A DNA stretch of 50,216 bases from an uncultured Pseudomonadota bacterium (lineage in GTDB: Bacteria; Bdellovibrionota_B; Oligoflexia; Oligoflexales; CAIYRB01): the NCBI GenBank assembly GCA_903915625.1, contig CAIWTN010000150.1:1-50216 (forward strand), given 5' to 3'. Position 1 is the first letter of the stretch. Each line of letters starts with the position of its first letter. Below the pieces are notes generated by a model. The model worked only from the letters and a program-made list of their open reading frames with translations, was not told the origin of the DNA and did no database searches. Position numbers and translations under genes: made by a program. Below are positions 16,298-50,216 of this stretch, in pieces.

Positions 16298-16309
16298 AGA
16301 TCATCCTTT

Positions 16310-16771
16310 CTATCGAACAGATCTCAAGCCATTGAGAATTTTTTCATTGATGGCTGCGCGTGACTCCGTCACCAAAATCATACTACCGCTGCCAAAAATG
16401 TAAGTGCCCATCCAATGGTCTTCCATTTCCAGCTTTTCACCGAGACGACATTGAAGTGGCACAACCTGACCATCGTAGCGCGTCACGAGAATGGTGAAAT
16501 AAAGGCGCTGTTGCTTGCCGACCAACTTGCCCTTTTCCACTTCGACCACACAAGTTTTGTGATGCGCCTTATGGTGCTTAGTCAGACACGACGTACAAGT
16601 CCAATTGCGCCAGATTTCGCAGAATGTGTTTGAACCCGACTTAGCATCGCAATGATAACACGCACCAATCTCACCAGACCCCGCACCCTTTCGGGAGCCA
16701 GATCCAGCCGGTGAACGCACTTGGCTGTTTGGAAGTGAAGTTGCCACCAATAGATTATAGTACCGAAGCAA
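16310..16771 (-). CDS. Small Cys/His-rich putative zinc protein of unknown function
   Basis: This 153-residue reading frame has no close family I can name. Residues 38-74 hold a cluster of potential metal ligands: Cys38, Cys41, Cys51, Cys59, Cys62, His66, His67, His70, His71 and Cys74. The layout CxxC-x9-C-x7-CxxC-x3-HH-x2-HH-x2-C looks like a cross-brace or treble-clef zinc fold, though spacing does not match a standard B-box or FYVE finger. The C-terminal half (about 78-150) looks like a small beta-rich domain of PilZ- or PH-like length, but I make no call. The start is uncertain: TTG at 16771 gives the longest form, GTG at 16747 is possible, and a TATAAT lies inside this N-terminal stretch. 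It is directly upstream of the receiver/TPR gene. Confidence 0.65.
   Translation of the reverse strand: MLRYYNLLVATSLPNSQVRSPAGSGSRKGAGSGEIGACYHCDAKSGSNTFCEIWRNWTCTSCLTKHHKAHHKTCVVEVEKGKLVGKQQRLYFTILVTRYDGQVVPLQCRLGEKLEMEDHWMGTYIFGSGSMILVTESRAAINEKILNGLRSVR
16754..16759 (-). promoter_or_regulatory. Possible -10 box for the Cys/His-rich gene and the receiver/TPR gene
   Basis: The minus strand reads TATAAT here, with TCGACG 18 bases upstream as a four-of-six -35 match. If used, transcription would begin near 16747 and translation would start at the GTG there, almost leaderless. Sequence-only suggestion. Confidence 0.3.
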
Positions 16772-16856
16772 TAACTTCGTCGAGGTGGCTTGTGTCGGTT
16801 ATGGTCAGTAGCAACTAAATCGAGCCTTCTCTCAACGCGGCATCTAGATCTAGTGA

Positions 16857-16946
16857 TGGTGCCCGCGGCCGGAATCGAACCGGCACGCCCCTTACGGAAG
16901 CACAGGATTTTAAGTCCTGTGTGTCTACCAATTTCACCACGCGGGC
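16857..16946 (-). tRNA. tRNA-Leu (anticodon UAA)
   Basis: The minus strand folds as a class II tRNA of 90 bases including an encoded CCA. The acceptor stem is GCCCGCG paired with CGCGGGC, followed by discriminator A. The D arm begins GTGGTGAAATTGGTAGACAC. The anticodon stem CAGGA/TCCTG encloses the loop CTTAAAA, giving anticodon TAA. A long variable arm (GTGCTTCCGTAAGGGGCGT region) and the T arm GCCGGTTCGATTCCGGC complete the structure. The variable arm and the UAA anticodon identify leucine. Confidence 0.97.
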
Positions 16947-17162
16947 AATTTGCGAGCTCTCATGAGGGCTCAATAGCAGAACCGAGGAAGAATTGGTAAC
17001 ACACGAAAAGGCATTCGCCAACGAAGGATCTAGGGCCCCAGAGAAATCTCTCCATTTACTGAAAAGCACTTCTTATATATTTATAGTAATTTATAGAATC
17101 AATTAAAAATCAAAAAAACAAGGACTTCCACACGCGACCAGGTATGGCATGAAGAAACTTCA

Positions 17163-35438: not shown

Positions 35439-38400
35439 TTAGCGTCTTTTTCCGCCACTAAATGAGAACTGATTATGACAGGTTTCACATTGTTCAAATC
35501 CACTCAGCTTGTGGTCTGGGAAAACGACCTTAACTGCATCCTGAATATGACAGCTTGCACAATCAGCTGATCGCCCCAGATACACCCCATTTGCGTGACA
35601 CTCCGAACATTCAAGCAACCTATGGGCGCCCCGAAGCGGAAACTGTGTCATCGAATGCTGAAAGCGCTGGGCTGACCAAAACTGCTGAGTATGACAATCA
35701 GCACAGTTAGGTTGTGACCCCAAGTGAGCGTCATCTTTCTGGTGGCAAACCTTACAATCATTAGCCGTGCCGGTCAGCTGACGCTTATTAGCATGGCATT
35801 CGTTGCATTCGAGTATGTAATGCACTCCAGTAAGCACAAAATCTTTATGGAAATCCGATGTTTTATCCCATCCAGTCTCGACATGGCACTGCGAGCACTT
35901 TTTACCGTACTGCCCTTTATGCGGATCTGCATGGCAAAGTGCGCAATCCTTGCTCTGAAGCTCGGCGAAAATGAAAGTACCCTTGTGATGACGCGGGGGC
36001 TCCTTAAATTTTTTCGCCGTCGGCTTGTGGCATTCCTCGCATTTAACTTTGAGATGCTTACCCTTTAAATCATATCTTGATTGATTGTGGTCGAATTTTA
36101 TCGGGGCATTGAAATGAACAGTCGAATGACACGTGCGACATGCTTGATTTGCAAACTTCGCATGGAACTGATCTTGGTGTTCATTCGAATGGCAGGCCTC
36201 ACAAAAACCAGTATTCTGGTGTTCGAACTGAAACAGTGATGCCGGCTTTGGCGGCTTTGTTGGCAAATTTTTCTGAGTTTTAATGTGGCATTCACCACAA
36301 TCATTTTTAATTTTTTGGTGTGATCCAGTGATCTGAAAGTCGGTTTGACTATGATCAAAAAGCTTTCTTTTTACAAAATCATCAGTCACATGGCAATCAA
36401 TACAAGGCTTTGAAGCAAATCGAGTGCTAAATTGTTCCTTGTGTACGTTAGAGTGACAACTTTCACAAAATCCGGTTTCCTTATGATCAAATATAAATTT
36501 TCCCGCAGGTCTTGGGGGAATTATCGGAAGCATCTTGTCGGTCTTGATGTGACACTTCACGCAGTCCACTTTGATCTTAGTGTGAGCACCCGTAATCTTG
36601 AACTGCGTGGTATTGTGATCAAACTGGTTTAAATCCTTAAAACTTTTTATATTATGACACTGCTGACAATTATCGCTTCGCGTCTGAGGATCGAATTGAT
36701 CCTTGTGTGGATTCTTATGACATTCCACACAATATCCCTCTTGCTGATGACCGAATATATATTTCCCTGCAGGGTGCGGCGGCTTCACCGGAAGCATTCG
36801 CTTTGTAGGTGTATGACATTTTACACATTGCTGCCCAATCTTCTGATGCGCATCGACAAGGTGAAACTGTGTTTTGTTATGATCGTATTTGAATATATCG
36901 GCGAATTTGGTCGTGTTATGACATTCGACGCAAGCCTGCTGAAGATACTTTGGCTGAAACTGTTCCTTATGCGGAGTCTTGTGACAATCCTCGCAGAATT
37001 GCGTTTTATCACCGGGGAATCGATAAATTTGCTTACCATCCTTAAGATGACAAGCAGCACATTTTAGGGGAACATGATTACCCGTCAAAGGAAATCGTGT
37101 CATCGTTGTGTGATTGAACCCAGCACCCGACGTTTGGGGCAAGATGTTCCAACCCTTAGTCGTGTGACAGGCTGAGCATTTGCTAGTTTTAAAAACCGGG
37201 TTCTTCGCAGGATCATGCGGGCTTTTATGACAGGTCTCGCAGGTACGAGACTCAAGTTCAGGCAACGAGTAATCGCGCGCAGTATTAGGAGTACTACCTC
37301 CGGCGAGTGGCTTGTGGCACTCAAAGCACTTAACTCCAATATGCTTGCCATCTATAGGATACTTCGTATCGGTATTATGATTAAATTTAATAAAGCTCTT
37401 CCAGGCGATTTCGTTATGGCATGTTTGACACTGGGCCAGCATCCCCAGCTTGGGCGAAATCTGGCTACGAAATCCATGGTAGTCCTTATGACAGCCAGAA
37501 CACTGCGTACCAAGTCCAGTAAAATTAAAATCTTTTAATTTTGATACATGCTGTGGCTGCTTGTGACAGGCCACACACGGTTCTTTTGCATGCGCACCAC
37601 GGAGTACAAAGCCGGTGATGTCATGATTAAAGTTTGCAATTTTCCAGCTCTGCTGTCCGTGGCAGCTTTCACAGGCGCCACCCTTGAATTTGCCGTCTAA
37701 ATTCTCTTTATGAAAATCAGCATGACACGTTCGACAGCCCTCACGCTTCAACTCTGGAAAATTGTATTTAACGGATGACTTACCACGGGGCGCGTGACAT
37801 TCAGCACAACTAACCTTGGCATGAGCACCTGCCAGCGGATAACCGGTTTCCTTTTTGTGATCAAAAAATGCATCCTTCCAATTCTTATCCGAATGGCAAG
37901 CATTACAATCACGAGTTCCCCACTTAGGAGGGAAAGCATGAACATCATCTTTCTTGTGACAACTCACGCAGGAGCTATCCTGACCGAAAAAACGAGTATC
38001 ATTTCGACGCACTGGCTTCTCTGTGCGGCGCTCTGTGTGACACTTAGAGCATTCAACGCCTACGTGCCCTCCATTTAGTGCAAAGCCCGTTTTTTTGTGG
38101 TCGAACCCCTTCTGTTTAAAAGCAATTGCATTGAAGTCTCGCCCCTTATGATCGGAGTGGCAGCTCAGACAGGTACCCTTAGCTAACGCGTGGAATCCCG
38201 TCTTTCTCGCTATCGACTTCTTTATTTCAGTGTGACACTCCAGACACTTATTATCAGGAACGCCATTACCGGCGTCATGGCATTTTAAACAACCACCGTG
38301 TTCAAACTCTTTATGACCCTCCATCAACGGACCTGGTGCGAGCAAAGAATTAATCAGACCCTCCCCTGAGGGAATACTCTGGTCAACACCCTTGCCCTTA

Positions 38401-38474
38401 GCTGCTCCAGCATGAGCCCAATTGGGAAGTAGACAGCTTGTAACGAAGAAAAGCGCTAGGATCCGGTTTTTCAC
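35439..38474 (-). CDS. Secreted multihaem c-type cytochrome with 36 CxxCH motifs
   Basis: This 1011-residue protein has a signal peptide (residues 1-22, cleavage after AHA) and 36 CxxCH haem-binding motifs from Cys62 to Cys996, spread evenly at about one per 27 residues. No other domain is visible, so nearly the whole chain is haem-carrying. Many additional His residues (FDHN, GxH, HKxQF) could be the second axial ligands, giving bis-His haems of low potential. Residues 494-843 are four tandem units of 86-88 residues with three haems each. Such chains act as molecular wires. Its ATG overlaps the stop of the beta-barrel gene by 4 bases, and it is the last gene of the electron-transfer operon. 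It is probably periplasmic or on the cell surface. The usual MtrC/OmcA folds have ten haems; this is far larger. Confidence 0.96.
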   Translation of the reverse strand: MKNRILALFFVTSCLLPNWAHAGAAKGKGVDQSIPSGEGLINSLLAPGPLMEGHKEFEHGGCLKCHDAGNGVPDNKCLECHTEIKKSIARKTGFHALAKGTCLSCHSDHKGRDFNAIAFKQKGFDHKKTGFALNGGHVGVECSKCHTERRTEKPVRRNDTRFFGQDSSCVSCHKKDDVHAFPPKWGTRDCNACHSDKNWKDAFFDHKKETGYPLAGAHAKVSCAECHAPRGKSSVKYNFPELKREGCRTCHADFHKENLDGKFKGGACESCHGQQSWKIANFNHDITGFVLRGAHAKEPCVACHKQPQHVSKLKDFNFTGLGTQCSGCHKDYHGFRSQISPKLGMLAQCQTCHNEIAWKSFIKFNHNTDTKYPIDGKHIGVKCFECHKPLAGGSTPNTARDYSLPELESRTCETCHKSPHDPAKNPVFKTSKCSACHTTKGWNILPQTSGAGFNHTTMTRFPLTGNHVPLKCAACHLKDGKQIYRFPGDKTQFCEDCHKTPHKEQFQPKYLQQACVECHNTTKFADIFKYDHNKTQFHLVDAHQKIGQQCVKCHTPTKRMLPVKPPHPAGKYIFGHQQEGYCVECHKNPHKDQFDPQTRSDNCQQCHNIKSFKDLNQFDHNTTQFKITGAHTKIKVDCVKCHIKTDKMLPIIPPRPAGKFIFDHKETGFCESCHSNVHKEQFSTRFASKPCIDCHVTDDFVKRKLFDHSQTDFQITGSHQKIKNDCGECHIKTQKNLPTKPPKPASLFQFEHQNTGFCEACHSNEHQDQFHAKFANQACRTCHSTVHFNAPIKFDHNQSRYDLKGKHLKVKCEECHKPTAKKFKEPPRHHKGTFIFAELQSKDCALCHADPHKGQYGKKCSQCHVETGWDKTSDFHKDFVLTGVHYILECNECHANKRQLTGTANDCKVCHQKDDAHLGSQPNCADCHTQQFWSAQRFQHSMTQFPLRGAHRLLECSECHANGVYLGRSADCASCHIQDAVKVVFPDHKLSGFEQCETCHNQFSFSGGKRR
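35946..36995 (-). repeat. Four tandem 88-residue trihaem units within the 36-haem cytochrome gene
   Basis: Cysteines that open equivalent motifs fall at residues 494, 582, 670 and 758, exactly 88 residues (264 bases) apart, and the next at 844 (86). Each unit has three CxxCH motifs at the same offsets (for example 494, 515, 550 and 582, 603, 638) and shares the pattern CxxCHxxxHKxQF, FDHNxTxFxxxGxH, and a KMLPxxPPxPAGKFIF-type linker. The pattern shows growth of the gene by internal duplication. Confidence 0.9.
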
Positions 38475-39895
38475 AAGATGCGCTCCAATCTCGGGGCTGT
38501 GTCTCGCATTGGCGTCAACTGCCGATGATTTATTCGGTAACCCAGACTTAACAGGAAACTCAGCACCGAAGCCTGCTCATCGCGCGCGGACTCCAACATA
38601 ATCGATCCCATGAGTTGCCTGTTGAACATGGAAGAGGCCTCAAGATCGATGATCAGGGGATGAAGCTTGACGCCAGTATCTCTGTTTTGAGTGGTATACT
38701 GGGCACTACTAGATATCGACGTACTACTTGCGTAGTAGGTCACACCAGCTTTTGTAAAAATGTCGTTACTAATAAAATTCTTCCGGTAACCTGCCCCACC
38801 AAAGACTGTGAGATGGCCACGCAGTAACCCAGTTGCAACGACTTTCCCGCCTACCAGCGCCTGATTCTTTCCGTCATTGCCACGTATACCGTAGGTCGTC
38901 TCACCGACCACAGCATACTGATTACTCAATTTCCACCGAGCATCGCCGCCAACTTGAGTGTAGGCACTAGGAGGCAAGCGATCGAGAAGATCACGACGGC
39001 GCTGATACTCCGTCAAATTCAGATGGATGATCCCGAGAGTACCAATAAAATGCGGGGAAATCGGCTCGTAAAGAGAAGCCCAAAGATTTCGTACGCGCAA
39101 AGATGGTTGAATATCGACATGCGACTGGTAGCTTAAGCGTTGGCCATTTTCATATTGCCTAATCGCATTAGCATACCAGAACAAATAATTCCCAATGGGA
39201 TGATCTGGTGGGAGGGTCGGAGATTGGCCGGGAAGTGTACTTCCTGATAATGGAGCTGCTGGATTGTCCAAAGACTCAATGTCAGTGACTGCTTTCCGCA
39301 TCACAAGGCTCGTGGCGGCGTAGGTATGGCTCTCACCAGCACGCCCCAAATCCTCATAAACTCCGTAGGCTCCAACCTGCCGATCTTCCTCAGTAAGCCT
39401 CAATGAACGGTTGCTTCGGTGTTCAGGGTACAGACCACCGAAAAAGGCGACACGGCTGTTGGCATTCAATTTATAGCCACCCTCGACCCCATCGTTACCC
39501 AGCACAGAGGCATCTGCAGCTACAAAACGGCCGAGCGACCAGAACAAAGCCCCACTACTTGGCGGGGACTTCAGGGCTAGCTGACGCAGTTGAGGCTCAT
39601 TGGCCTGCACCAAACGTCCCAGCGTTGGTTCAACGCGGCCAAAGGAATCATATTTGTCTCGAGCATCCACTATTACTTCGAGATTATCAGACCCTATCCT
39701 AGTCACATCGACGTAGACTCGAGCTAAAGTGAGAAATGCGTCATTTTCGCGAGATCCCGAATCAGTCGTATTGAGATTCTCTCTGGCTGCGTAAACACCT
39801 AAATTAAGTCGTCCGGTATACTCATAGGCCAGTGCTGGCGTCGATAATACCGACGCAAACATAGACAACAGCGATGAGATACGAAACAACATCAA
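38471..39895 (-). CDS. Outer-membrane beta-barrel, putative porin of the cytochrome conduit
   Basis: This 474-residue protein has a signal peptide (residues 1-23, ALA|YE) and alternating strands with aromatic belts, for example YTGRLNLGVYA, DAFLTLARVYVDVTRIG, FIGTLGIIHLNLTEYQ, HLTVFGGAGYRKNF and SVLSFLLSLGYRIN. It has no haem motif. Its start follows the tetrahaem lipoprotein gene by 19 bases, and its stop overlaps the 36-haem cytochrome start by 4 bases, so the three are co-translated. By analogy with MtrB, PioB and the Geobacter porin-cytochrome complexes, it likely forms the sheath through which a cytochrome spans the outer membrane. It does not obviously match any of those barrels in sequence, so this role is inferred from context. 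Confidence 0.78.
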   Translation of the reverse strand: MMLFRISSLLSMFASVLSTPALAYEYTGRLNLGVYAARENLNTTDSGSRENDAFLTLARVYVDVTRIGSDNLEVIVDARDKYDSFGRVEPTLGRLVQANEPQLRQLALKSPPSSGALFWSLGRFVAADASVLGNDGVEGGYKLNANSRVAFFGGLYPEHRSNRSLRLTEEDRQVGAYGVYEDLGRAGESHTYAATSLVMRKAVTDIESLDNPAAPLSGSTLPGQSPTLPPDHPIGNYLFWYANAIRQYENGQRLSYQSHVDIQPSLRVRNLWASLYEPISPHFIGTLGIIHLNLTEYQRRRDLLDRLPPSAYTQVGGDARWKLSNQYAVVGETTYGIRGNDGKNQALVGGKVVATGLLRGHLTVFGGAGYRKNFISNDIFTKAGVTYYASSTSISSSAQYTTQNRDTGVKLHPLIIDLEASSMFNRQLMGSIMLESARDEQASVLSFLLSLGYRINHRQLTPMRDTAPRLERIL

Positions 39896-39914: not shown

Positions 39915-40331
39915 CTATGGCACCAGAAAATTCGGCAGCAAATTAGTCCCTGCTCCAGTGGAAAAACTCGTTGTATTGTGACATGAGACACAATCAGTCT
40001 TTTGCGGATGTGGGTCTGCCGGACGCTGCTGAGCATGGCACTCATTGCATGAACTCGGCTTTGGGGTGTGCTTGAATGGCTTAAGAGGTAACCACCCAGA
40101 TCTATCGTCTTTTGGTGTGTGACAACGAACGCACTCTCCGCCCGCACCATGAATTTCATCATCTATTGGAGCCGGCCTTTGCGACTCATGACAAGCAGAA
40201 CAAGTGTTGCTGCCAAGAAATTCCGCATGCTCAAATTTTGGGGTGACAGACTGCGACGCACCTATACCTGGGGTACGCACTAAACATGCGGTAAGACAAC
40301 CGGCCACAACTATCACAACGACACATCTCAT
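39915..40331 (-). CDS. Tetrahaem c-type cytochrome lipoprotein
   Basis: This 138-residue protein has a lipoprotein signal (lipobox LTAC, Cys16) and four CxxCH motifs: CSACH, CVRCH, CNECH and CVSCH. It is small, like cytochromes c3/c7, and the histidines between the motifs could serve as distal ligands. The mature protein should be anchored in the inner or outer membrane leaflet and act as a periplasmic shuttle or wire. Its start overlaps the oxidoreductase stop by 4 bases and it lies just upstream of the beta-barrel gene. In the proposed chain it would carry electrons between the inner-membrane oxidoreductase and the barrel with the 36-haem cytochrome. Confidence 0.92.
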   Translation of the reverse strand: MRCVVVIVVAGCLTACLVRTPGIGASQSVTPKFEHAEFLGSNTCSACHESQRPAPIDDEIHGAGGECVRCHTPKDDRSGWLPLKPFKHTPKPSSCNECHAQQRPADPHPQKTDCVSCHNTTSFSTGAGTNLLPNFLVP

Positions 40332-41680
40332 TTCCTTCGCAACCTTTCACCAAACTTCTTTTCAATTTTGATCCCTAGTCCCTTCAGAAAGGTCGCAGGA
40401 ATCTCGGCACCGGCAAATATAAAAACATAGCTATTATTCATTTTCACCTGACTGCCACCATAATCGACCATTATATGCATTGGGTGAATAGAGGAAATGG
40501 AACTCTCAAATAGGATCCAAATTTTTCCTTTTAGAGCTAGTGCATTCACAGCGTCAATATTCTCTTGATTAGCTCTGTTAAAGGACTTACTACGAACAAG
40601 CAATGTTACACGATTTTTCAATGCTGGATTTGCTAACTGTAGAGCCGCTTCAACAGCAGCATTACCACCACCTACAATTGCAATGTCGCGGCGACGATAT
40701 TGTTCGGGCTCCAGCAAATTATAAGTGACCTTCGGGAGTTCCTCGCCAGGCACGTTAATTTTCCTAGCCGTACCCCGCACGCCCATCGCTAAAATCACTT
40801 TCTTAGCTGTCAGCACACCAAGCGAAGTTTCCACAGTGAAGACATCATTATTTTTTGAAAGGTTGATAAACTTACAACCCTCTCGAATTTTTAGGCGGTA
40901 TTTTTTCCGTATTTTACTCCAGTAACTTAAAAGCTCCTCTTTCGAAACTTTATTACCCGCGAACTCCATTGCACCAACCATCGGCAGTTCAGCGGGCTGG
41001 GTCATGACTATCTTCTGACGGGGAAAATTATAGATAGTCCCGCCCACACTGTTTTGTTCAATGCATGCGTAGTTAATGCGACCCTGCACCGCAGCCAGTG
41101 CTGCCGATAATCCCGCTGAGCCAGCTCCGACGATGAGAAGATCTAAATCTGCCGAGATATTCGGCGACAGAGTCGAGATCGCATGCGCTGCCGCCATTTT
41201 CCCTTGACGCACCGCATTTCGAATTAAGCCCATGCCACCCAGTTCACCTGCGATATAGAGACCTTTAATATTGGTTTCATAATTAGTCGTGATCCGAGGA
41301 AGTTCCATCCCCCTTCGCTTCGTACCGAAGACCAAATCAATTGCACCAAACGGACAAGCGACTTCACACTGACCATGTCCGACACACATGTTTGGTTTTA
41401 CAAGTACAGCCCTGTGGTTAATAATCTGCAGAATTTCACCTTCAGGGCATGCCTTAACACATGCCGTGCATCCAGTGCACCGCGCTGCATCAATCTCTGG
41501 ATGTAGGGTCGTTGGTTCGATAAGGTCGTTGGCGACTGTGGCCTTAAATGCTTGAACTGCCCTTTGTTGATCTAGCCTACGCCGTCTGACGCTCCAATAT
41601 GCCATGGCTCCGACAAGGGCAAACCCCACCGGAGCGACAATTTTAGCCATATATATTGAAAGCAGACTCCAGAAGTGCAT
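40328..41680 (-). CDS. Membrane-anchored FAD-dependent oxidoreductase with two Fe-S cluster motifs
   Basis: This 450-residue protein has an N-terminal hydrophobic helix (about 10-30), a ferredoxin-like domain (about 60-115) and a thioredoxin-reductase-like flavoprotein domain (about 178-450). The first cluster motif is complete: Cys68, Cys71, Cys74, Cys78. The second is CVGHGQC-x3-CP (Cys99, His102, Cys105, Cys109), with His where a Cys is usual, a variant common in this type. The dinucleotide loops are VGAGSAGLSAAL (FAD) and VGGGNAAVEAAL (NAD(P)H). The CxxC redox pair of thioredoxin reductase is missing, so electrons probably leave through the Fe-S clusters. It begins the cytochrome operon and would feed electrons from NAD(P)H to the cytochromes, or run in reverse. 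Confidence 0.88.
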   Translation of the reverse strand: MHFWSLLSIYMAKIVAPVGFALVGAMAYWSVRRRRLDQQRAVQAFKATVANDLIEPTTLHPEIDAARCTGCTACVKACPEGEILQIINHRAVLVKPNMCVGHGQCEVACPFGAIDLVFGTKRRGMELPRITTNYETNIKGLYIAGELGGMGLIRNAVRQGKMAAAHAISTLSPNISADLDLLIVGAGSAGLSAALAAVQGRINYACIEQNSVGGTIYNFPRQKIVMTQPAELPMVGAMEFAGNKVSKEELLSYWSKIRKKYRLKIREGCKFINLSKNNDVFTVETSLGVLTAKKVILAMGVRGTARKINVPGEELPKVTYNLLEPEQYRRRDIAIVGGGNAAVEAALQLANPALKNRVTLLVRSKSFNRANQENIDAVNALALKGKIWILFESSISSIHPMHIMVDYGGSQVKMNNSYVFIFAGAEIPATFLKGLGIKIEKKFGERLRRK

Positions 41681-41772: not shown

Positions 41773-42540
41773 TCATCGAATATCAATGTTTTTTTGTTTA
41801 CCTAGAATTTCTCGACCAACCACCAAAAGAAACGCGGCATTGGAGGCATATCGCTTGACTAATCGTCTTGGGTCGCTAAGCATCCGATAGATCCATTCGG
41901 TACCGGACCTTTGCATCCATCTTGGAGCTCTTTTCAAAAGCCCCGCTTGAAATTCAATTGCAGCCCCAACACCCAAACAGATACCAACATTTAACTGTGA
42001 CCTAAAGCGGGCGATCCAAATCTCCTGCTTAGGGCTACCTACACCAACAAAAAGCACTCCAGGAGCCTGTTCGTTTATTAGTGTAATAATTCTTTGATTT
42101 TCTATGTCATCAAATTCAAAACCAAACGGAGGACAGTATTCCCCCACAATTAAGCCCGGATGTTCCTTCTTTAGAGAATCTGCAGCATTTTTTGCAGCGC
42201 CTGGTGGCCCACCAAGAAGATACACACCGATTCCATGAGTTGCCGCACTTTCACAAATTGATGGCAGCAAATCTGCTCCAGTGACTCGCTCTGGCAAGCC
42301 TTTACTCCGCAAACGAGACAACCATACTAAAGGCATTCCGTCAGCAAGCACGAGTGCTGCGCTCTGATAAATCTGCCTAAGTTCTGGCGATTTTTCCAAT
42401 CGAAGCAGATGATCTACATTGGGCGTCACAACGAAGGGAGTCGGCCGATCCCTACGATTCGCTATCGAAATAATCCTGTTTACAGCTTCATTAAATCTCA
42501 GACTATCAAATTTAAGTCCAGCTACTTGCACCCGATTCAT
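41773..42540 (-). CDS. WecG/TagA/CpsF-family glycosyltransferase
   Basis: This 255-residue protein belongs to the WecG/TagA/CpsF family (GT26), which adds the second sugar, often N-acetylmannosamine or its uronic acid, to a lipid-linked sugar. It has VVTPNVDHLLRL (37-48), LADGMPLVWLSR (66-76) with the catalytic-type Asp67, RVTGADLLP, and GVGSPKQEIWIARF followed by GVGAAIEFQAG. The C-terminal segment with RRLVKRYASN is the usual membrane-contact appendage. It is divergent from the GT4-type gene at 42632 and close to the start of the cytochrome operon, but is probably part of the polysaccharide machinery. Confidence 0.92.
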   Translation of the reverse strand: MNRVQVAGLKFDSLRFNEAVNRIISIANRRDRPTPFVVTPNVDHLLRLEKSPELRQIYQSAALVLADGMPLVWLSRLRSKGLPERVTGADLLPSICESAATHGIGVYLLGGPPGAAKNAADSLKKEHPGLIVGEYCPPFGFEFDDIENQRIITLINEQAPGVLFVGVGSPKQEIWIARFRSQLNVGICLGVGAAIEFQAGLLKRAPRWMQRSGTEWIYRMLSDPRRLVKRYASNAAFLLVVGREILGKQKNIDIR

Positions 42541-42631: not shown

Positions 42632-43822
42632 GTGGCTAATATTCTTATACTATCAGCACTACAGATATTCCCACCGGTTTCCGGAGGCAACTACAGAACG
42701 GCTATGATCGCGGAGGGCCTAGCGACGTATGGCCATTCTGTGCGCATCCATTCTCTACTTGGACGTAAACACGACATGCTCCGAGGCAAACCACAGGGAA
42801 TTGCCTATATCAGCGAAAAAATACTCGAATTTGTGCAGCGATCAAAGTGGCTCTGGGTAGAGGCAATGGTCTCCTACAAACGAAATCGGCCGCCATTCTG
42901 GGCAACCAAAGCACTGAATAATCCAACTATTCACCTTAAGTCAGATGCTGAATGGGCAGACACTATTATCTTCGATTTCCCTTTCTCGTTTTGCGAGATC
43001 GCTCAATCAAATCAACTAAAGATACTCAATACGCACAATATTGAGGAGAATATATTTAATGCTCTTGATGATCGACAAAAGAATACTTCGAACAAGGTAG
43101 CCCAGCAAGAAATCCAAGCCATCAACAAAGTTAATCTTGTTTGTTGCGCATCAGTTGAGGAATCGACACATTTCTCTGCATTGGCCCCAAATCAACGATT
43201 TATCGTAATACCTAACTGCGTAGACAGAAGGCGTTTTCACGACCTTTCTATTCAAAGGGAAACAGTCCGCCATCAACTCGGTATTAATGCACAAACCAGA
43301 GCTTTGCTATTTCCAGCCAGTCGTTATGCACCAAATCAAGAAGGATTTGATTTCCTCTCTAACTTCGCCGAGAGAAATTCTGATCTACTCGAAGAACTCG
43401 ATCTGACTTTCGTCGTCACCGGAAGCGTTACAAAGAAACCACTAAAATCCGGACGTCTAATAGCAACTGGCCCAGTACCAGAGATCGAACCGTACTTCGG
43501 AGTCGCAGACTGGGGACTTAATCCCATTTTCAAGGGATCGGGCACCAGCATAAAGGTCGCTGAAATGATCGCAGCTGAATTGCCGCTGCTTACCACAGCA
43601 GTCGGAGCGCGCGGTTTTGACCTAACCAATCAAGAGGACGTAATTTTTTTCGACCGCGAAACATTCGCTGAAACGTTAAAAAAATTGCCTATTAATCACC
43701 AACATCTGAGGAAGATGACTTCCCAAGCAGCAGTTAAAAACGCGAGATACTTCGACCCTCATTTGGCCGTAGAGTCCCTACATCAGGCGATTGATCGCTC
43801 GTTCCGAATAGTGCCCCGTTAA
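42632..43822 (+). CDS. GT4-like glycosyltransferase
   Basis: This 396-residue protein starts with GTG, with CAGGA 6 bases before it. It has a GT-B layout: an N-terminal domain opening with ANILILSALQIFPPVSGGNY and a C-terminal domain with LFPASRYAPNQEGFDFL, the nucleotide-sugar region FKGSGTSIKVAEMIAAELPLL and TTAVGARGFD, which fits the GT4 signature only loosely. No signal peptide or membrane helix. Donor and acceptor are unknown. It is divergent from the WecG-type gene and lies upstream of the carrier-protein cluster, with a 178-base gap that probably holds the cluster's promoter. Confidence 0.82.
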   Translation: MANILILSALQIFPPVSGGNYRTAMIAEGLATYGHSVRIHSLLGRKHDMLRGKPQGIAYISEKILEFVQRSKWLWVEAMVSYKRNRPPFWATKALNNPTIHLKSDAEWADTIIFDFPFSFCEIAQSNQLKILNTHNIEENIFNALDDRQKNTSNKVAQQEIQAINKVNLVCCASVEESTHFSALAPNQRFIVIPNCVDRRRFHDLSIQRETVRHQLGINAQTRALLFPASRYAPNQEGFDFLSNFAERNSDLLEELDLTFVVTGSVTKKPLKSGRLIATGPVPEIEPYFGVADWGLNPIFKGSGTSIKVAEMIAAELPLLTTAVGARGFDLTNQEDVIFFDRETFAETLKKLPINHQHLRKMTSQAAVKNARYFDPHLAVESLHQAIDRSFRIVPR

Positions 43823-44000
43823 TCTAGAATGAAATTTTCTATTCGGGTTTAAATTAACGAAAAAATTGGCGTATTTAGACATACTTTAACAACGATAAAA
43901 ACAGTTAGATCACAGTTCCTAGTGTGAAATGTTACTATTAAAGAAGCCACTTACCGCCGAAAATTTTCCCCGCTAAGAAGTGTAACTTCCATTGATAAAA

Positions 44001-44435
44001 ATGCTCCGAAAACTGCTGACCATAGCGGTAACTCCCCGAGTTGCGGTTGGTTCAGATATTGTCTGGGTTCCTGACATTAGGGAATCAGTTCAGCAATTCG
44101 GGGAACGCTATCTGAGGTTCATTTTCACAGAAAAAGAGATCGCGAACTGCACGAGAAACAAAGAAGACATTTCTTGTTGGGGATTAGCCGCCCGCTTTGC
44201 AGCCAAGGAGGCTACTATGAAATTGTTACGGCCCGACCGCGACCAACTTCTACCGTGGCGGTCCATCGAAGTAGTGCAGAGTCTAAATGGGGCTGTAAAT
44301 ATAAAGCTGCATGAACCCGCTTCCCGAATGGCGGATGCCGCCGGTATCGACCAGATAACCTTGAGTATGAGTCATGAACGCGACTACGCAACCGCGGTAG
44401 TCGTCGGTATCGGCAAAGCCACCTACCAACAGTAA
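44001..44435 (+). CDS. acpS: AcpS-type holo-acyl-carrier-protein synthase
   Basis: This 144-residue protein is a phosphopantetheinyl transferase of the AcpS type, which moves the 4'-phosphopantetheine arm from CoA to a serine of a carrier protein. Motifs VGSDIVWVPDI, FTEKEI and AARFAAKEATMKLL are present, including the magnesium-binding Asp and Glu. I chose ATG at 44001; a TTG at 43992 in frame is also possible. It lies 64 bases upstream of a carrier-protein gene. It may be the cell's general AcpS or a dedicated enzyme of this cluster. The 178-base upstream gap is AT-rich and likely holds the promoter, but I see no clear -35/-10 pair. Confidence 0.88.
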   Translation: MLRKLLTIAVTPRVAVGSDIVWVPDIRESVQQFGERYLRFIFTEKEIANCTRNKEDISCWGLAARFAAKEATMKLLRPDRDQLLPWRSIEVVQSLNGAVNIKLHEPASRMADAAGIDQITLSMSHERDYATAVVVGIGKATYQQ

Positions 44436-44499
44436 TTAACATCCACTAGGGACAATTAGCGTTTAATACAAAAAAATTCCCAAATTAAGGAGTGGAAAC

Positions 44500-44739
44500 A
44501 TGGAAGGAAAGATTCGGCAAATCCTAAAAGACCATGGGCGGCTTTCCGTCGATACGACCACTCTGGGCGTTGATTCTGACCTTTACCAGGCAGGTATGAC
44601 TTCTCATGCAAGCGTAAACGTTATGTTGGCGTTAGAGGGAGAATTCGATATTGAATTTCCTGATCGCATGCTCAAGCGAAGCGTCTTTGAAAGCATCTCA
44701 GCAATTCAGACTGCAATTTCAGAGCTAAAAACTAACTAG
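44500..44739 (+). CDS. Stand-alone carrier protein
   Basis: This 79-residue acidic protein has the acyl-carrier fold: DLYQAGMTSHASVNVMLALE with the phosphopantetheine-accepting Ser35, then FDIEFPDRML and a final helix with FESISAIQTAI. The usual DSL motif is replaced by TSH, as in carrier proteins paired with amino acid:[carrier protein] ligases. A GGAG ribosome-binding site lies about 8 bases before the ATG. In this cluster it should receive an amino acid as a thioester. It is distinct from the fatty-acid ACP by sequence and neighbourhood. Confidence 0.88.
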   Translation: MEGKIRQILKDHGRLSVDTTTLGVDSDLYQAGMTSHASVNVMLALEGEFDIEFPDRMLKRSVFESISAIQTAISELKTN

Positions 44740-44796
44740 ACAATCATATCCAGTGCAATAAGACCTATTAATTCACCATCAGCGGAGACTGATGCC

Positions 44797-45966
44797 TTGA
44801 CGAAATCCGCGACGTCATCATTGATAGAAATCGCTCGCAGCATTGGTCAGAACATTGCCGGACCTGCGGCTAATGACGTCGACGAAAAGGCCAGATTTCC
44901 GATCGAAGCACTAAATGCAATGAAAGAGCAAAGCCTACTTAGTGCCTACATACCCCAATACCTAGGCGGAGCGGGTGCAAGTCTCAGAGATCTCGCTATG
45001 ATCTCAGAAGAACTAGGCCGTCACTGCGGCGCCACTGCGATGATCTTTGCCATGCATCAAATCCAGGTAGCTTGCATCGTACATCATGCAGTCGACCGGG
45101 AGTATTTTAGAAATTATCTAAGCGACCTGGTTCACAATCAGCATCTAATCGGATCAGTCACCTCTGAATTGGGGGTGGGGGGCGAGATGCGATCAAGCAT
45201 CTGCGCCATCGAGGAGGAGGCTGAAAATTTTATCCTAGTGAAGGACAGCACCACTAGCTCTTATGGAGCCTACGCCGACGATCTTTTAGTTACAGCGAGA
45301 AAGTCGCCTTCATCACCTGCAAACGATCAGGTGCTCGTGCTGGTAAAAAAGGGCGATTTCACAATGGCCCAAAACGGCAACTGGAACCCCATGGGTATGC
45401 GGGGAACTTGCAGCGCTCCGTTCAAATTAACGTCAAAGGGGAACATCGACCAGATATTGAAAGTCCCTTTTTCAACAATTTCCAGCCACACCATGGTTCC
45501 GGTTTCACACTTTGTCTGGGCGGGCACATGGGTAGGCACAGCCCGAGCTGCTGTCAGCAAGGCGCGCGCATTTGTCCGAGGTCAGGCCCGCGCAAAGCCG
45601 GGGACTGTGCCACCTACAGCCTTGCGGTTAGCTGAAGTAGTGCCTCTACTCCAACTGCTAAGAACCTCAACCGATGCCTTACTAAGCGAATACGAACGCT
45701 TAATTTCATCATATCCACCGAGTGAAGAACTTTCATCTATTTCATACGCCTTAAAACTAAATAATCTCAAACTTTCTGGATCAGAACTTATTGTAGAAAT
45801 CGCCAACCGCGCCCTAAATATTTGCGGTGTAGCTGGCTACAAAAACGACTCAAAGTTTTCTCTTGGTCGAGTTCTTCGCGATGCTCACGCGGCTGCTCTG
45901 ATGGTCGGAAATGACCGCATACTTCATACCAATGCTGGGATGCTTCTAGTTTTAAAAGACGACTAA
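44797..45966 (+). CDS. Acyl-CoA dehydrogenase-like flavoprotein
   Basis: This 389-residue protein starts with TTG, preceded by a CGGAG site. It follows the acyl-CoA dehydrogenase layout: helical N-terminal domain (about 1-115), beta domain (about 120-230; GSVTSELGVGGEMRSS replaces the usual T-E-x-x-x-GS form) and C-terminal helices (about 240-389). At the end, where dehydrogenases have the catalytic Glu in YEGT, it reads LMVGNDRILHTNA, so that Glu is missing. It is likely FAD-dependent and may act on an aminoacyl-carrier-protein thioester, as do PltE and RedW on prolyl thioesters, or as an oxygenase of the DszC type. It lies between the carrier protein and the ligase that charges it. Confidence 0.85.
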   Translation: MTKSATSSLIEIARSIGQNIAGPAANDVDEKARFPIEALNAMKEQSLLSAYIPQYLGGAGASLRDLAMISEELGRHCGATAMIFAMHQIQVACIVHHAVDREYFRNYLSDLVHNQHLIGSVTSELGVGGEMRSSICAIEEEAENFILVKDSTTSSYGAYADDLLVTARKSPSSPANDQVLVLVKKGDFTMAQNGNWNPMGMRGTCSAPFKLTSKGNIDQILKVPFSTISSHTMVPVSHFVWAGTWVGTARAAVSKARAFVRGQARAKPGTVPPTALRLAEVVPLLQLLRTSTDALLSEYERLISSYPPSEELSSISYALKLNNLKLSGSELIVEIANRALNICGVAGYKNDSKFSLGRVLRDAHAAALMVGNDRILHTNAGMLLVLKDD

Positions 45967-45988
45967 AAAGTTACGAGGTAATGAATTC

Positions 45989-46900
45989 ATGACTCCAGAG
46001 TTCTCTTCAAAAAGCCTTTACGACGACCTAGTGAAATTTGGACACATCATCCCAGTCGGTGTACCAGGTATTTTCGGACGCGGCGCGATATTTGAAGATA
46101 TTCTGACTCGCTTCGAAGCAGCTGTAGGCCGACTTGCTGCGAGTGACCATGCAACCAAGGTACACTTCCCCCCCTGCATCAATCGGCAGATACTTCAAAA
46201 AAGTCTCTATATTGACTCCTTCCCGCAACTGAGTGGAACTGTATTTAGCTTTACTGGAAACGACGCTGCTCATCGCGAACTTAGCAGCCGCCTGAAAGAT
46301 GACAAGCCATGGGGCGATTTGCAGACGATGACTGATTGCTGCCTAACTCCAGCAGCTTGCTACCCAGTATATCCAACGTTCACCGGTACTCTTCCGACTG
46401 ATGGCGCGCTAGTTGACGTTCAGAACTGGGTATTTCGCCATGAACCGTCTGACGAACCGACCCGAATGCAGGCCTTTCGAGTTCACGAGTATGTCCGTCT
46501 AGGGACCACAGATGTCGTAGTAGCCTGGCGCGACCTGTGGCTTCAACGTGGACTGGATATCCTTCTCTCGCTGGGGCTAGCGGTTAAGGCAGAAGTAGCG
46601 ACCGACCCATTCTTTGGTCGTGGAGGGCGAATGCTCGCGGCAAACCAGCGTGAGCAAAAACTAAAATTTGAGGTTGTTTGCCCGGTCATATCAGCCGAGA
46701 AGCCTACGGCACTTTGCTCTTTCAATTATCACCAGGATAAATTCGGCACCATCTTCAACATCAAAACGTCAACGGGCGAAACAGCTGACACAGCTTGCCT
46801 CGGATTTGGCCTCGAACGAATCGTCATGGCACTACTCAAAACTCACGGCATGGATCCGGGTAGTTGGCCAAAACCGGTGCGCGAGGTCCTCTGGACATGA
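45989..46900 (+). CDS. Amino acid:[carrier protein] ligase (class II aaRS-like)
   Basis: This 303-residue protein is related to the catalytic core of atypical seryl-tRNA synthetases but has no tRNA-binding domain. It matches the amino acid:[carrier protein] ligases described from Bradyrhizobium and Agrobacterium, which activate glycine or alanine and attach it to the phosphopantetheine arm of a carrier protein. Class II motif 2 (FRVHEYVRLGTTD, about 163-175) and motif 3 (LGFGLERIVMAL, about 271-282) are visible. The three likely zinc ligands are Cys124 (PAACYP), Glu167 and Cys270. The ligand set indicates amino-acid rather than serine-tRNA chemistry. Its stop overlaps the next start by 4 bases. 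The amino acid used cannot be read from sequence. Confidence 0.9.
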   Translation: MTPEFSSKSLYDDLVKFGHIIPVGVPGIFGRGAIFEDILTRFEAAVGRLAASDHATKVHFPPCINRQILQKSLYIDSFPQLSGTVFSFTGNDAAHRELSSRLKDDKPWGDLQTMTDCCLTPAACYPVYPTFTGTLPTDGALVDVQNWVFRHEPSDEPTRMQAFRVHEYVRLGTTDVVVAWRDLWLQRGLDILLSLGLAVKAEVATDPFFGRGGRMLAANQREQKLKFEVVCPVISAEKPTALCSFNYHQDKFGTIFNIKTSTGETADTACLGFGLERIVMALLKTHGMDPGSWPKPVREVLWT

Positions 46901-47877
46901 GCACTTACTGCTTCAGCTCAATAAATCCACAGAACTACGTGCCACACGAGCTTCATCGCCTCGAACGGGCATGGACAGAGACAAACTGCTATGTAGATGT
47001 CTGGATTGAGATTCTCAATACAAAGGGATTGGACCCAGCGGCTTGTCTATCGATGGTGCTGGCCGTTGATTTTGACGGAGATCAGTGGACTTTTTTCAAA
47101 CCACCACATGAGGATCTCTTCGAACTTTATGGAGTTGATGTCCAGGAACTAAACGTCTGGCGAACGTTGATCGAGAACACTATTGAACAGCTTAGCCGAG
47201 GTCGCTTGGTACTAGCAGAGACTGACGCTTTTTATTTACCAGACACTTCTGGAACGGATTACCGGACAAAGCACACAAAGACCACCATCGGAATCCAGGA
47301 AATCGATCTCAAAAATCAAACCCTGGGTTACTTTCACAATGCCGGTTACTACCGCTTGTCTGGCGAAGACTTCGTTAAATTGTTACGGATTGACTCACCT
47401 AACGACCCAACACACATGCCGTTTTTCGCGGAGTTCATCCGCTTCGATCGACTTACTCATCGGAACTCAAAGGAACTAGCCGCGATTTCAAAAACCCTGG
47501 CGAAGAAGCACTGGGAGCGACGACCCCGCACCAATCCGATCCGCCAATTCACACCGCGCTTCTTACGTGACGTGGAGGCACTAAAGGCCGAGGGCCTTGC
47601 CAGTTTCCACGCATATGCATTCGCAACATTAAGGCAAATCGGTGCAGCTTTTGAATTAGCTGGATACTACTTATCTTGGTTAGGACAGCACGGGCAGCTT
47701 AGTCACACAGGAATGGTGCTTGAAAGTGAGCGCATCTCGACGACTACCAAATCGCTATTAATGAAAACAGCCAGAGCCGTCAATACCAAGCGCGAAGTTG
47801 AACTAACACCCATGCTTGATGAGCTTTCCATCAGCTGGGACTCACTGATGATCGCTTTACATCAAGAATTCACTTAA
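46897..47877 (+). CDS. DUF1839-family protein
   Basis: This 326-residue protein is a DUF1839 family member, a family found next to amino acid:[carrier protein] ligases. The ATG at 46897 overlaps the ligase stop by 4 bases and is the likely start. Visible sequence: NPQNYVPHELHRLERAWTET near the N-terminus, DFDGDQWTFFKPPHEDLFEL, then DTSGTDYRTKHTKTTIGIQ. No signal peptide, membrane helix or cofactor motif is evident. The conserved context suggests it handles the aminoacyl-carrier product, for example by transferring it to an acceptor, but this is inference only. Its stop overlaps the next gene's ATG by one base (TAATG). Confidence 0.85.
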   Translation: MSTYCFSSINPQNYVPHELHRLERAWTETNCYVDVWIEILNTKGLDPAACLSMVLAVDFDGDQWTFFKPPHEDLFELYGVDVQELNVWRTLIENTIEQLSRGRLVLAETDAFYLPDTSGTDYRTKHTKTTIGIQEIDLKNQTLGYFHNAGYYRLSGEDFVKLLRIDSPNDPTHMPFFAEFIRFDRLTHRNSKELAAISKTLAKKHWERRPRTNPIRQFTPRFLRDVEALKAEGLASFHAYAFATLRQIGAAFELAGYYLSWLGQHGQLSHTGMVLESERISTTTKSLLMKTARAVNTKREVELTPMLDELSISWDSLMIALHQEFT

Positions 47878-50216
47878 TGCCCATCAAGATGCAGCCCAAA
47901 AGTTGTATACAAACGCCGGTGGACTCTGGCTGGGATTATGTGTCGCTTGTGCCGAATCAAGCACTTATTCCAACCGACCTCGCGAATCTGCCCCTGACTT
48001 GGCAACCAGCAGTTGTACCCGGAACCGTTGCTGGTAGCCATCAGGCTACAGGCATCTTCAAATTCGGCGAACTAAACTACGATGAGCAAGATTATTGGTA
48101 TCGATGTCAGATCACGTTACCAAGGGCCGAATTTGTCGCACTTTACTTCGGCGGCTTAGCCACGCTGGCCGAGGTCTACTGGAATGACGAGCTCATTTTA
48201 AGCTCAAACAATATGTTTCAAAGTCACTGGGTCGACATGACCTACAAGCAGAAGTTCGGCATTCTTCATATTAGATTTCGCTCCTTAAAAACCGAGCTAG
48301 TGGTTAAGAGGCCGCGCCCCCGCTGGCGGACTCGCTTGGTCGATCAACAGCAACTACGGTGGCTGCGAACTACTTTGCTGGGCCGGATCGCACCATGGTC
48401 ACCTCCTGTTGCTCCGGTTGGTCCGTTTCGAGGGATCAGCATTTACAGCGGTGATAAAGTCTTTGTCAAACAGTCGCAGGTTAGCGCAAGCCTGGATGGC
48501 TCTAGAGGAGTCATACACACCTCTATTACCTTACAAATGCTAGGCAATGGCTTTTTGACTAAGGCAACCCTACGAGCAGGATCCAATAGTGAGCTCATCC
48601 AATTCACTGACATTGGTGATGGACTTTTCCGCACCGAATGCAGCGTGCATATCGAGAATCCGCCATTGTGGTGGCCACACACCCACGGGACGCCAGCTTT
48701 AATAGATGTGAGTTTAGAGCTTGAAGGGAGTGACTTCACCACAGTGTTAGAGCTAGGAAGGACTGGATTCCGTTCAGTTGATGTCGATCAGCAACAGGGC
48801 AGCTTTACCATCATTGTGAATAACATCCCAATTTTTTGCCGTGGCGCATGTTGGACACCTACCGACGTAATCGCGCTAAGTGCAGACAGCAAGTCTATGC
48901 GAGCCACACTACTTGCCGCTAGAAACGCTGGCATGAACATGCTCCGCATCTTTGGCTCCATGTTGTACGAATCTGATGAATTTTACAAAACCTGCGATGA
49001 ACTCGGCATCATGGTCTGGCAGGACTTCATGTTCTCGAACATGGATTATCCATTAACGGACACAAACTTTCTTGCATCAGTTGTAGAGGAAGTTAAGCAA
49101 TTCACCAGCAGAACACAGCTATCTCCCTGTATCACAGTATTTTGTGGAAATAGTGATGTTGAGCAACAAACATCAATGCTTGGCCTACCCAAAGAACTCT
49201 GGCGTGATCTCTTCTTTGCCGAAACATTACCGGAACTCATCAAATCATTGCGAGCTGATACGATTTACTGCCCTTCTAGCCCAAGTGGAGGCGACGTACC
49301 TTTTCAGGTGGACACCTCGATTTCGCATTATTACGGAGTAGGTGCCTATATGAGGCCCTTGAGTGACGCCAGACTGAGTGGCGTCCGCTTCGCGGCGGAA
49401 TGTCTGGGTTTTGCGAATATTCCGGAGGAATCTACGATAAATGGATTTCTCAAAGACGGCGAGGCACCTGTTCATCATCCGGCGTGGAAATCTCGGGTAC
49501 CGCGCGATGGCGGTGCGGGTTGGGATTTTGATGATATCCGTGATCACTACACCCGAGAGATCTTCTCAGTTGACCCAGCTAAACTCCGTTATTCCGACAT
49601 GACCCGATACCTTGCTCTGTCTCGTGTCAGTAGCGGGGAGGTAATGGCTCGCACTATCGGTGAGTGGCGCCGAGTCGGCTCTAGCTGCCAAGGAGCGATC
49701 ATTTGGTGGTTACGCGACCTCTGGCCTGGCGCAGGATGGGGTCTGATAGATGCAAATGACACACCAAAAGCCGCTTATTATTACTGCAAGCGAGCCATGG
49801 CTCCCGTGGCTCTGGTGATCACTGACGAGGGTCTGAACGGACTTGAAATCCATGCAATTAACGAAACCTCAGAGGATATCCATGGGGTCCTGAACCTATC
49901 CTTCTACCGAGATGATTCAGTCCGCACAACTCACGCCAAAACCCAACTCCTAATTCCCGCACGAAACAAAATCAAACTAAAAGCCGATGCAATCATCGGT
50001 CATTTTATCGATACTGCCTACGCGTATCGTTTCGGTCCACCGAATCACCATATTGTTACGGCGAACATTCAAGGTCCTTCGAATGACGTTCCAATCTGTG
50101 AAGCTTTTAATTTTCCTCTTGGTTTGGCTCTCAGACAAGACAGTGACCTTGGACTTAGTGCTATCGTTTCTCAACGGCTTGATGGCTCATGGCAATTGGA
50201 TCTACACACACTTAGA
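47877..50216 (+). CDS. GH2 family beta-mannosidase-like protein (runs off the right edge)
   Basis: The frame is open for 780 codons from ATG 47877 to the window end with no stop. The first part is a GH2 sugar-binding domain (WQPAVVPGTVAGSH, DYWYRCQITLP, YFGGLATLAEVYWN); then an immunoglobulin-like domain (about 200-300); then the TIM barrel with FCRGACWTPTDVIA, ARNAGMNMLRIFG and IMVWQDFMFSNMDYP. The acid/base loop reads CGNSDVEQ (Asp427, Glu429) where beta-mannosidases have GNNE. The likely nucleophile is Glu508 in FAAECLGF. There is no signal peptide, so it should be cytoplasmic, unlike a scavenging hydrolase. It is translationally coupled to the DUF1839 gene and is the last gene seen in the cluster. 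Confidence 0.86.
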   Translation, partial: MPIKMQPKSCIQTPVDSGWDYVSLVPNQALIPTDLANLPLTWQPAVVPGTVAGSHQATGIFKFGELNYDEQDYWYRCQITLPRAEFVALYFGGLATLAEVYWNDELILSSNNMFQSHWVDMTYKQKFGILHIRFRSLKTELVVKRPRPRWRTRLVDQQQLRWLRTTLLGRIAPWSPPVAPVGPFRGISIYSGDKVFVKQSQVSASLDGSRGVIHTSITLQMLGNGFLTKATLRAGSNSELIQFTDIGDGLFRTECSVHIENPPLWWPHTHGTPALIDVSLELEGSDFTTVLELGRTGFRSVDVDQQQGSFTIIVNNIPIFCRGACWTPTDVIALSADSKSMRATLLAARNAGMNMLRIFGSMLYESDEFYKTCDELGIMVWQDFMFSNMDYPLTDTNFLASVVEEVKQFTSRTQLSPCITVFCGNSDVEQQTSMLGLPKELWRDLFFAETLPELIKSLRADTIYCPSSPSGGDVPFQVDTSISHYYGVGAYMRPLSDARLSGVRFAAECLGFANIPEESTINGFLKDGEAPVHHPAWKSRVPRDGGAGWDFDDIRDHYTREIFSVDPAKLRYSDMTRYLALSRVSSGEVMARTIGEWRRVGSSCQGAIIWWLRDLWPGAGWGLIDANDTPKAAYYYCKRAMAPVALVITDEGLNGLEIHAINETSEDIHGVLNLSFYRDDSVRTTHAKTQLLIPARNKIKLKADAIIGHFIDTAYAYRFGPPNHHIVTANIQGPSNDVPICEAFNFPLGLALRQDSDLGLSAIVSQRLDGSWQLDLHTLR

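Follow-up and report, generated by a model that had tools for sequence, protein, structure and literature searches.

The amino acid:[carrier protein] ligases are relatives of tRNA synthetases, and the characterised members use glycine or alanine (PMC5370406). Their product has been an open question since 2010, the year in which Iyer and Aravind described a gene neighbourhood with such a ligase and proposed ligation of an amino acid to a sugar amine and monooxygenation by the flavoprotein encoded nearby (PMC2922099). CcbD and LmbD (celesticetin, lincomycin) attach a carrier protein-bound amino acid of the proline type to an amino sugar by way of an acyl-cysteine; the mechanism of CcbD is ping-pong and uses a catalytic cysteine (PMC12945683). 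A 2023 survey assigned DUF1839 proteins to the papain-like superfamily, gave their site as C(T/S)H and guessed at a role in glycan processing (PMC10318531). Here we describe a locus with such a ligase and a DUF1839 gene at the right end of a 50,216-nucleotide stretch of DNA (the window; contig CAIWTN010000150.1) from an uncultured bacterium of the Oligoflexales. The window is one entire contig of an assembly of 4.42 Mb in 252 contigs. The locus belongs to the known, uncharacterised system of Iyer and Aravind 2010, and its DUF1839 protein is predicted to be a carrier protein-dependent aminoacyl (amide) transferase of the CcbD/CtaG/AziU3 type.

Six genes lie on the forward strand between 43992 and 50216, in the following order: an AcpS-type phosphopantetheinyl transferase, a carrier protein (CP), an acyl-CoA-dehydrogenase-fold flavoprotein (ACAD), the ligase, DUF1839 and a glycosidase of family GH2. 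This is the arrangement reported by a first-pass annotation of the window, including the overlap of the last three genes. The overlaps are of 1-4 bp, with ATGA shared by ligase and DUF1839 (46897-46900) and TAATG at the DUF1839/GH2 junction (47875-47879), and overlapping starts and stops are the usual sign of translational coupling.

The same genes are found together in distant genomes. A scan of genome contigs for DUF1839 only gave 80 loci, and linkage was counted in the 43 that have enough flanking DNA, all of them outside the home genus. ACAD and CP are present in all 43, the ligase in 42 and GH2 in 40; a tandem alpha/beta-hydrolase (31/43) and AcpS (19/43) are less constant partners. ACAD, ligase and DUF1839 are collinear in 42 of these loci and the five-gene order CP-ACAD-ligase-DUF1839-GH2 is kept in 27, the remainder being rearranged, often with AcpS-CP-GH2-hydrolase as a second, sometimes divergent, block. 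Since the loci were picked by DUF1839 alone, the sampling itself does not force GH2 and ligase to appear together, and the first-pass annotation, which would have given up its proposal had the two genes not co-occurred elsewhere, gains from this result. The linkage is not due to chance. Judged by record titles, the loci come from Pseudomonadota, Myxococcota, Acidobacteriota, Verrucomicrobiota, Planctomycetota, Gemmatimonadota, Actinomycetota and Chloroflexota, and the module is a mobile set of five to seven genes common to at least eight phyla. Within the home phylum, the genomes with a ligase match over the cut-off and those with DUF1839 are the same six of 58, all six belonging to the home genus, which points to horizontal gain of the module there. 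Distances between module proteins correlate (rho 0.35-0.72), a correlation that is confounded by host phylogeny and is not used as evidence here. A scan of viral contigs found no relatives of the ligase.

Stand-alone CP-ACAD-ligase-DUF1839-GH2 operons, often with an added alpha/beta-hydrolase gene, are carried on plasmids of Azospirillum, Rhizobium, Phyllobacterium, Mycetohabitans and Caballeronia, with no glycosyltransferases adjoining. On a Rhizobium gallicum plasmid that carries nitrogenase genes, the module (L098, 7367-13539) lies directly downstream of nifN, nifX and fdxB and is preceded by a small gene whose annotation is that of an exopolysaccharide production repressor. The conjugative plasmid p3 of Rhizobium sp. 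NZLR1 has an orphan DUF1839 gene (L097, 12001-12936) with no other module gene within 11 kb, and a Cupriavidus campinensis plasmid (L100) carries DUF1839 twice, at a distance of about 9 kb, with the hydrolase next to one copy and ligase and GH2 next to the other.

The first-pass annotation gave no role to DUF1839 (46897-47877, forward strand; PF08893, 364 bits, over its cut-off). The AlphaFold2 (AF2) model of this protein has a mean pLDDT of 95.3, and the 19 Foldseek matches at E 0.001 or below are all to AziU3/U2, CtaG and CcbD. VIA-align superposes the model on CcbD with Z 20.0 (287/326 residues, root-mean-square deviation 3.5 A), on AziU3 with Z 18.8 and on CtaG with Z 17.6, after which scores drop to 7.8; papain-like proteases reach 7.5 or less. 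The match to the CcbD-type fold is thus full-length. The assignment rests on the model, because a sequence-profile search against solved structures gave only coiled-coil chance matches; PF08893 is the sole Pfam match, with none to BtrH_N (PF14399). Among 85 aligned relatives, no substitution occurs at Cys31 or His147, and position 129 holds either Thr or Ser throughout (numbering from 46897). By number, Cys31/Thr129/His147 fall close to Cys11/His128/Asp144 of CtaG, the residues mutated in its deposited structures. Conservation, together with the survey (PMC10318531), suggests the site order Cys-Thr/Ser-His, as opposed to the Cys-His-Glu/Asp order of CcbD/LmbD-type amide synthases.

The ligase (45989-46900, forward strand; PRK07080, 400 bits versus a cut-off of 357) has 303 residues, matches Bll0957 with E 1e-69 and aligns to the catalytic part of seryl-tRNA synthetase (SerRS) only, the tRNA-binding domain being absent. 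The residues that correspond to the zinc ligands of Bll0957 are conserved in the family (C124 and C270 in 79/79, E167 in 75/79 with Asp in the other four), and all three are present in the window. Two genes upstream lies the CP gene (44500-44739, forward strand; PF00550; PRK07081, 108 bits versus a cut-off of 72), whose phosphopantetheine site, Ser35 in GMTSHAS, is kept in 76/76 relatives. AcpS (44001-44435, forward strand; PF01648; TIGR00516 over its cut-off) starts with ATG at 44001, its open reading frame reaching upstream to a TTG at 43992. Its genome has no second AcpS-sized copy, the other PF01648 match sitting in a 237-residue frame, so the dedication of this AcpS to the module is not certain.

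A related set of genes on a Priestia megaterium plasmid (L102, 1890-15713) combines AcpS, CP, ACAD and ligase with a DMT transporter, an ATP-grasp protein, an alanine permease, an alanine racemase and, upstream, a D-Ala-D-Ala ligase; it has neither DUF1839 nor GH2. Its gene content is compatible with alanine as substrate and with a different amide-forming enzyme, of the ATP-grasp, amide-ligase type, and the cluster looks like an alanine-mimic pathway with self-protection genes.

The ACAD (44797-45966, forward strand) has the acyl-CoA dehydrogenase fold by both profile (PF02771, PF00441) and comparison of its AF2 model (Z about 41), and it has no canonical catalytic Glu. In 80 aligned sequences, the site of MCAD Glu376 is V, I or L and the site of IVD Glu254 is S, A or T; a catalytic carboxylate is absent at both dehydrogenase base sites in every relative with a residue there. 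In the window protein, a Val is aligned with the catalytic Glu of butyryl-CoA dehydrogenase. Because the usual carboxylates are lacking in all relatives, simple dehydrogenation appears doubtful, and the invariant His79, His89, His230, Trp233 and Trp237 (numbering from 44821) suggest a chemistry unlike the usual one. The model does not separate dehydrogenases from monooxygenases, with ACADSB, SCAD, ColB1 and DszC within about 2 Z of each other, and profile comparison is likewise near-equal.

The GH2 gene (47877-50216, forward strand; PF22666, 56 bits versus 27) is cut by the contig end, 780 of about 841 residues being present; the missing C-terminal domains are present in a congener, whose intact protein has the beta-mannosidase 5n6u as its best solved relative. 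Among 72 relatives, the nucleophile Glu (Glu508 in the window) and the mannosidase Trp (W381) are each kept in 71. The acid/base residue is Glu in 63, Asp in six (four of the home genus, L067 and L068) and Gln in three, and the residue before it is Ser, replacing Asn, in 62. Ser-Glu is found in 58/72, and the window protein has Ser-Asp, with Asp427 at the acid/base position; the Asn-Glu motif of GH2 beta-mannosidases is not present in it. Ser-Asp has been associated with a glucosaminidase subfamily, Ser-Glu with GH2_14 and the Trp with mannosidases (PMC12243196). A mannose-configured, C2-substituted (for example, amino-substituted) target sugar is a reasonable guess, no more. None of the 72 relatives has an N-terminal hydrophobic segment, which supports the cytoplasmic location predicted in the first-pass annotation.

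That annotation had also suggested looking beyond the right edge, and congeners made this possible. Five of them hold ligase, CP, ACAD, DUF1839 and GH2, and in four (L091, L092, L094, L095) the operon continues directly after GH2 into a gene for a protein of about 600 residues with two alpha/beta-hydrolase domains. This protein is similar to exosortase-A-associated hydrolases 1 and 2, with scores under the cut-off of each. The nucleophile position is Arg in domain 1 of 45/48 sequences, and domain 2 has a Cys nucleophile and a His in all 48, a pattern that may indicate acyl transfer instead of simple hydrolysis. The L095 copy (15219-17042) shows both the Arg and the Cys. A search of the rest of the home genome did not find the gene, which fits the contig break and proves nothing. 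A relative (27% identity, E 1e-21), annotated as hypothetical, is encoded on a Tsukamurella plasmid (L103, 15293-16888), where AcpS, CP, ligase and this gene lie among glycosyltransferases and a Wzx-type gene, without ACAD, DUF1839 or GH2.

We consider it fairly probable that the locus encodes a self-contained aminoacyl-transfer pathway, comprising CP loading, oxidation and amide transfer to a sugar-type acceptor. AcpS would place phosphopantetheine on the CP, and the SerRS-like ligase would load a small amino acid, glycine or alanine if its characterised relatives are a guide. The flavoprotein would then oxidise the CP-bound aminoacyl thioester; as it lacks the usual base, it seems likelier to carry out an oxygenation or an atypical dehydrogenation than ordinary alpha,beta-desaturation. 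The DUF1839 cysteine would take over the modified aminoacyl group and hand it to an acceptor amine, forming an amide, as CcbD and LmbD do with an amino sugar. The acceptor would bear a sugar, probably mannose-configured or amino-substituted, which the cytoplasmic GH2 enzyme may cleave, trim or transfer, and the tandem hydrolase, with its cysteine nucleophile, may act on the same acyl or ester intermediates. The scheme of the first-pass annotation (load, oxidise, transfer to a sugar acceptor) is compatible with all this and acquires in DUF1839 a candidate for the transfer; its oxidation step, if meant as a simple dehydrogenation, does not fare as well. Gene content, linkage, conservation and the predicted fold are direct results of our analysis, and every reaction, like the acceptor, is deduced from them.

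Several points weigh against this pathway. All of its reactions are predicted ones, and the acceptor is suggested only by CcbD and GH2. A shared fold is no proof of function, AziU3 having the same fold and another role. DUF1839 seems to put a His where CcbD and CtaG have an acidic residue, so catalysis would not be identical. The change from Glu to Asp at the acid/base position of the window GH2 could mean weak or no hydrolysis. GH2 is dispensable in some loci, because three Alphaproteobacterial loci consist of CP-ACAD-ligase-DUF1839 only, and in four loci (L048, L050, L055, L067) CP-ACAD-DUF1839-GH2 occurs with no ligase between ACAD and DUF1839. Glycosyltransferases, too, are missing in half of the loci. 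We also considered an adenylation domain as the ligase substitute in the four ligase-less loci; one is near two of them only, on the other strand, and the substitution is not claimed.

The reading closest to ours departs from it only in the acceptor: the surrounding genes would make an exopolysaccharide, one of whose amino sugars would receive the aminoacyl group, with GH2 editing lipid-linked precursors. In the home genus, GNAT, GH44 EpsB-like and Wzx-like genes are also near the module, and because of them the module looks like part of an exopolysaccharide locus, lying between the GT4/WecG genes on one side and the GH44 EpsB-like and Wzx-like genes on the other. The Tsukamurella AcpS, CP, ligase and hydrolase relative, set among glycosyltransferases, fit as well, and polysaccharide decoration was put forward by Iyer and Aravind 2010 (PMC2922099). 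A glycosyltransferase lies within about 10 kb in 21/43 loci, a lower bound since home-made profiles were used, but none was recognised in the other 22, and no glycan genes are close to several rhizobial and Azospirillum plasmid operons. We regard decoration as a substantial possibility that falls somewhat short of an even chance. The self-contained plasmid operons, including the one by nif genes in Rhizobium gallicum, and the self-protection look of the Priestia genes, with their transporter, ATP-grasp, alanine permease, alanine racemase and D-Ala-D-Ala ligase, would instead suit a small diffusible aminoacyl-sugar or modified amino acid, a signal or antimetabolite, made by the module alone. 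However, no dedicated exporter is among the conserved module parts, and the Priestia cluster, without DUF1839 and GH2, may be another pathway, so that this reading is put forward only tentatively.

Two further readings are improbable. According to Iyer and Aravind, the discovery of the ligases in 2010 placed them in nonribosomal peptide pathways (PMC2922099), and a ligase with a free-standing CP, along with adenylation-domain genes near four loci (L022, L028, L048, L050), is what such a pathway might show. Yet these adenylation genes are uncommon and lie on the opposite strand, no condensation domain or nonribosomal peptide synthetase (NRPS) gene recurs among the conserved neighbours, and the transfer role would be filled by DUF1839; this reading is so weakened that we give it very little credence. 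Hardly better placed is the idea that DUF1839 is a protease or thioesterase and that the module degrades or edits something: the papain-like fold (PMC10318531) speaks for it, and the full-length match to CP acyltransferases, about 10 Z units above the proteases, speaks against it. Taking the favoured aminoacyl-transfer pathway a step further, one may speculate, with more doubt than confidence, that this is a widespread, horizontally moving pathway, with hosts from at least eight phyla and symbiosis plasmids among its carriers, whose end product is an amide of an oxidised aminoacyl group and an amino sugar. A relative of the tRNA synthetases would feed the pathway, and its chemistry would be like that of the lincosamide synthetases. 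The compounds would form a class not seen so far, as signals, antimetabolites or building blocks of glycans, and GH2 would work in the cytoplasm as a maturase or transglycosidase.

The two glycosyltransferase genes that the first-pass annotation noted directly upstream do exist, but the WecG/TagA/CpsF-family gene (41773-42540; PF03808, 199 bits) is a divergent neighbour on the reverse strand, with counterparts close to the module in the home genus alone, and the GT4-type gene (42632-43822, forward strand; PF13692) is conserved in three congeners only (L092, L094, L095). Neither belongs to the conserved module, the weight earlier placed on them is not borne out, and glycosyltransferases were rejected as an integral module part given their absence within about 10 kb in 22/43 loci and from several plasmid operons. 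Further upstream, a 1011-residue protein with 36 CxxCH haem motifs is encoded (35439-38474, reverse strand). Its neighbours are 38471-39895, possibly encoding an outer-membrane protein, 39915-40331, for a protein with four CxxCH motifs, and 40328-41680, whose product resembles FeS/FAD oxidoreductases; together they may be an electron-export locus. Open reading frames of similar size flank the module in congeners L092 and L095.

Placing DUF1839 in the CcbD fold narrows the question of the product to a two-enzyme assay with few amino-sugar acceptors to consider, and the stand-alone operons allow clean genetics in Azospirillum and Rhizobium, both of which can be cultured. If the proposed pathway is correct, a tRNA-synthetase relative has a widespread, uncharacterised use in building aminoacylated sugars.

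The neighbourhood of Iyer and Aravind (Atu2574 and neighbours) shares with the window locus the ACP, the redox flavoprotein, a highly conserved uncharacterised ORF (open reading frame), the glycosidase, the SerRS-like ligase and the proposed purpose; Atu2574 itself is only a putative DUF1839 protein. In the accessible part of that account, the ORF is not given a CcbD-type fold, and neither a tandem alpha/beta-hydrolase nor any counts appear (PMC2922099). Relative to it, and to the part of the post-2010 subscription literature that was searched, our analysis contributes counts, a predicted CcbD-type fold for DUF1839, the absence of the catalytic bases from ACAD, the motif in GH2, the tandem hydrolase and the operons that stand alone. 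Compared with Bradyrhizobium amino acid--[acyl-carrier-protein] ligase 1 (Bll0957), the window ligase is over the family cut-off, keeps the zinc ligands and likewise has no tRNA-binding domain. The GH2 beta-mannosidases (5n6u, 6ddt, 2je8) agree with the module GH2 in domains, nucleophile Glu and active-site Trp, whereas the module protein has Ser-Glu (Ser-Asp in the window) in place of Asn-Glu and no export signal. CtaG (closthioamide) and AziU3 (azinomycin) share the predicted fold of DUF1839 over about 270-287 residues, but have acceptors and chemistry of their own and apparently a different active-site order (CtaG variants C11, H128, D144). CcbD and LmbD resemble DUF1839 in predicted full-length fold, catalytic Cys and CP partner, and probably in joining an amino acid to an amino sugar, at 11-12% identity. 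They differ in loading by an NRPS adenylation domain, where the module uses a SerRS-like ligase, and apparently in a Cys-His-Glu rather than Cys-Thr/Ser-His site; the GH2 and ACAD partners are on the side of the module.

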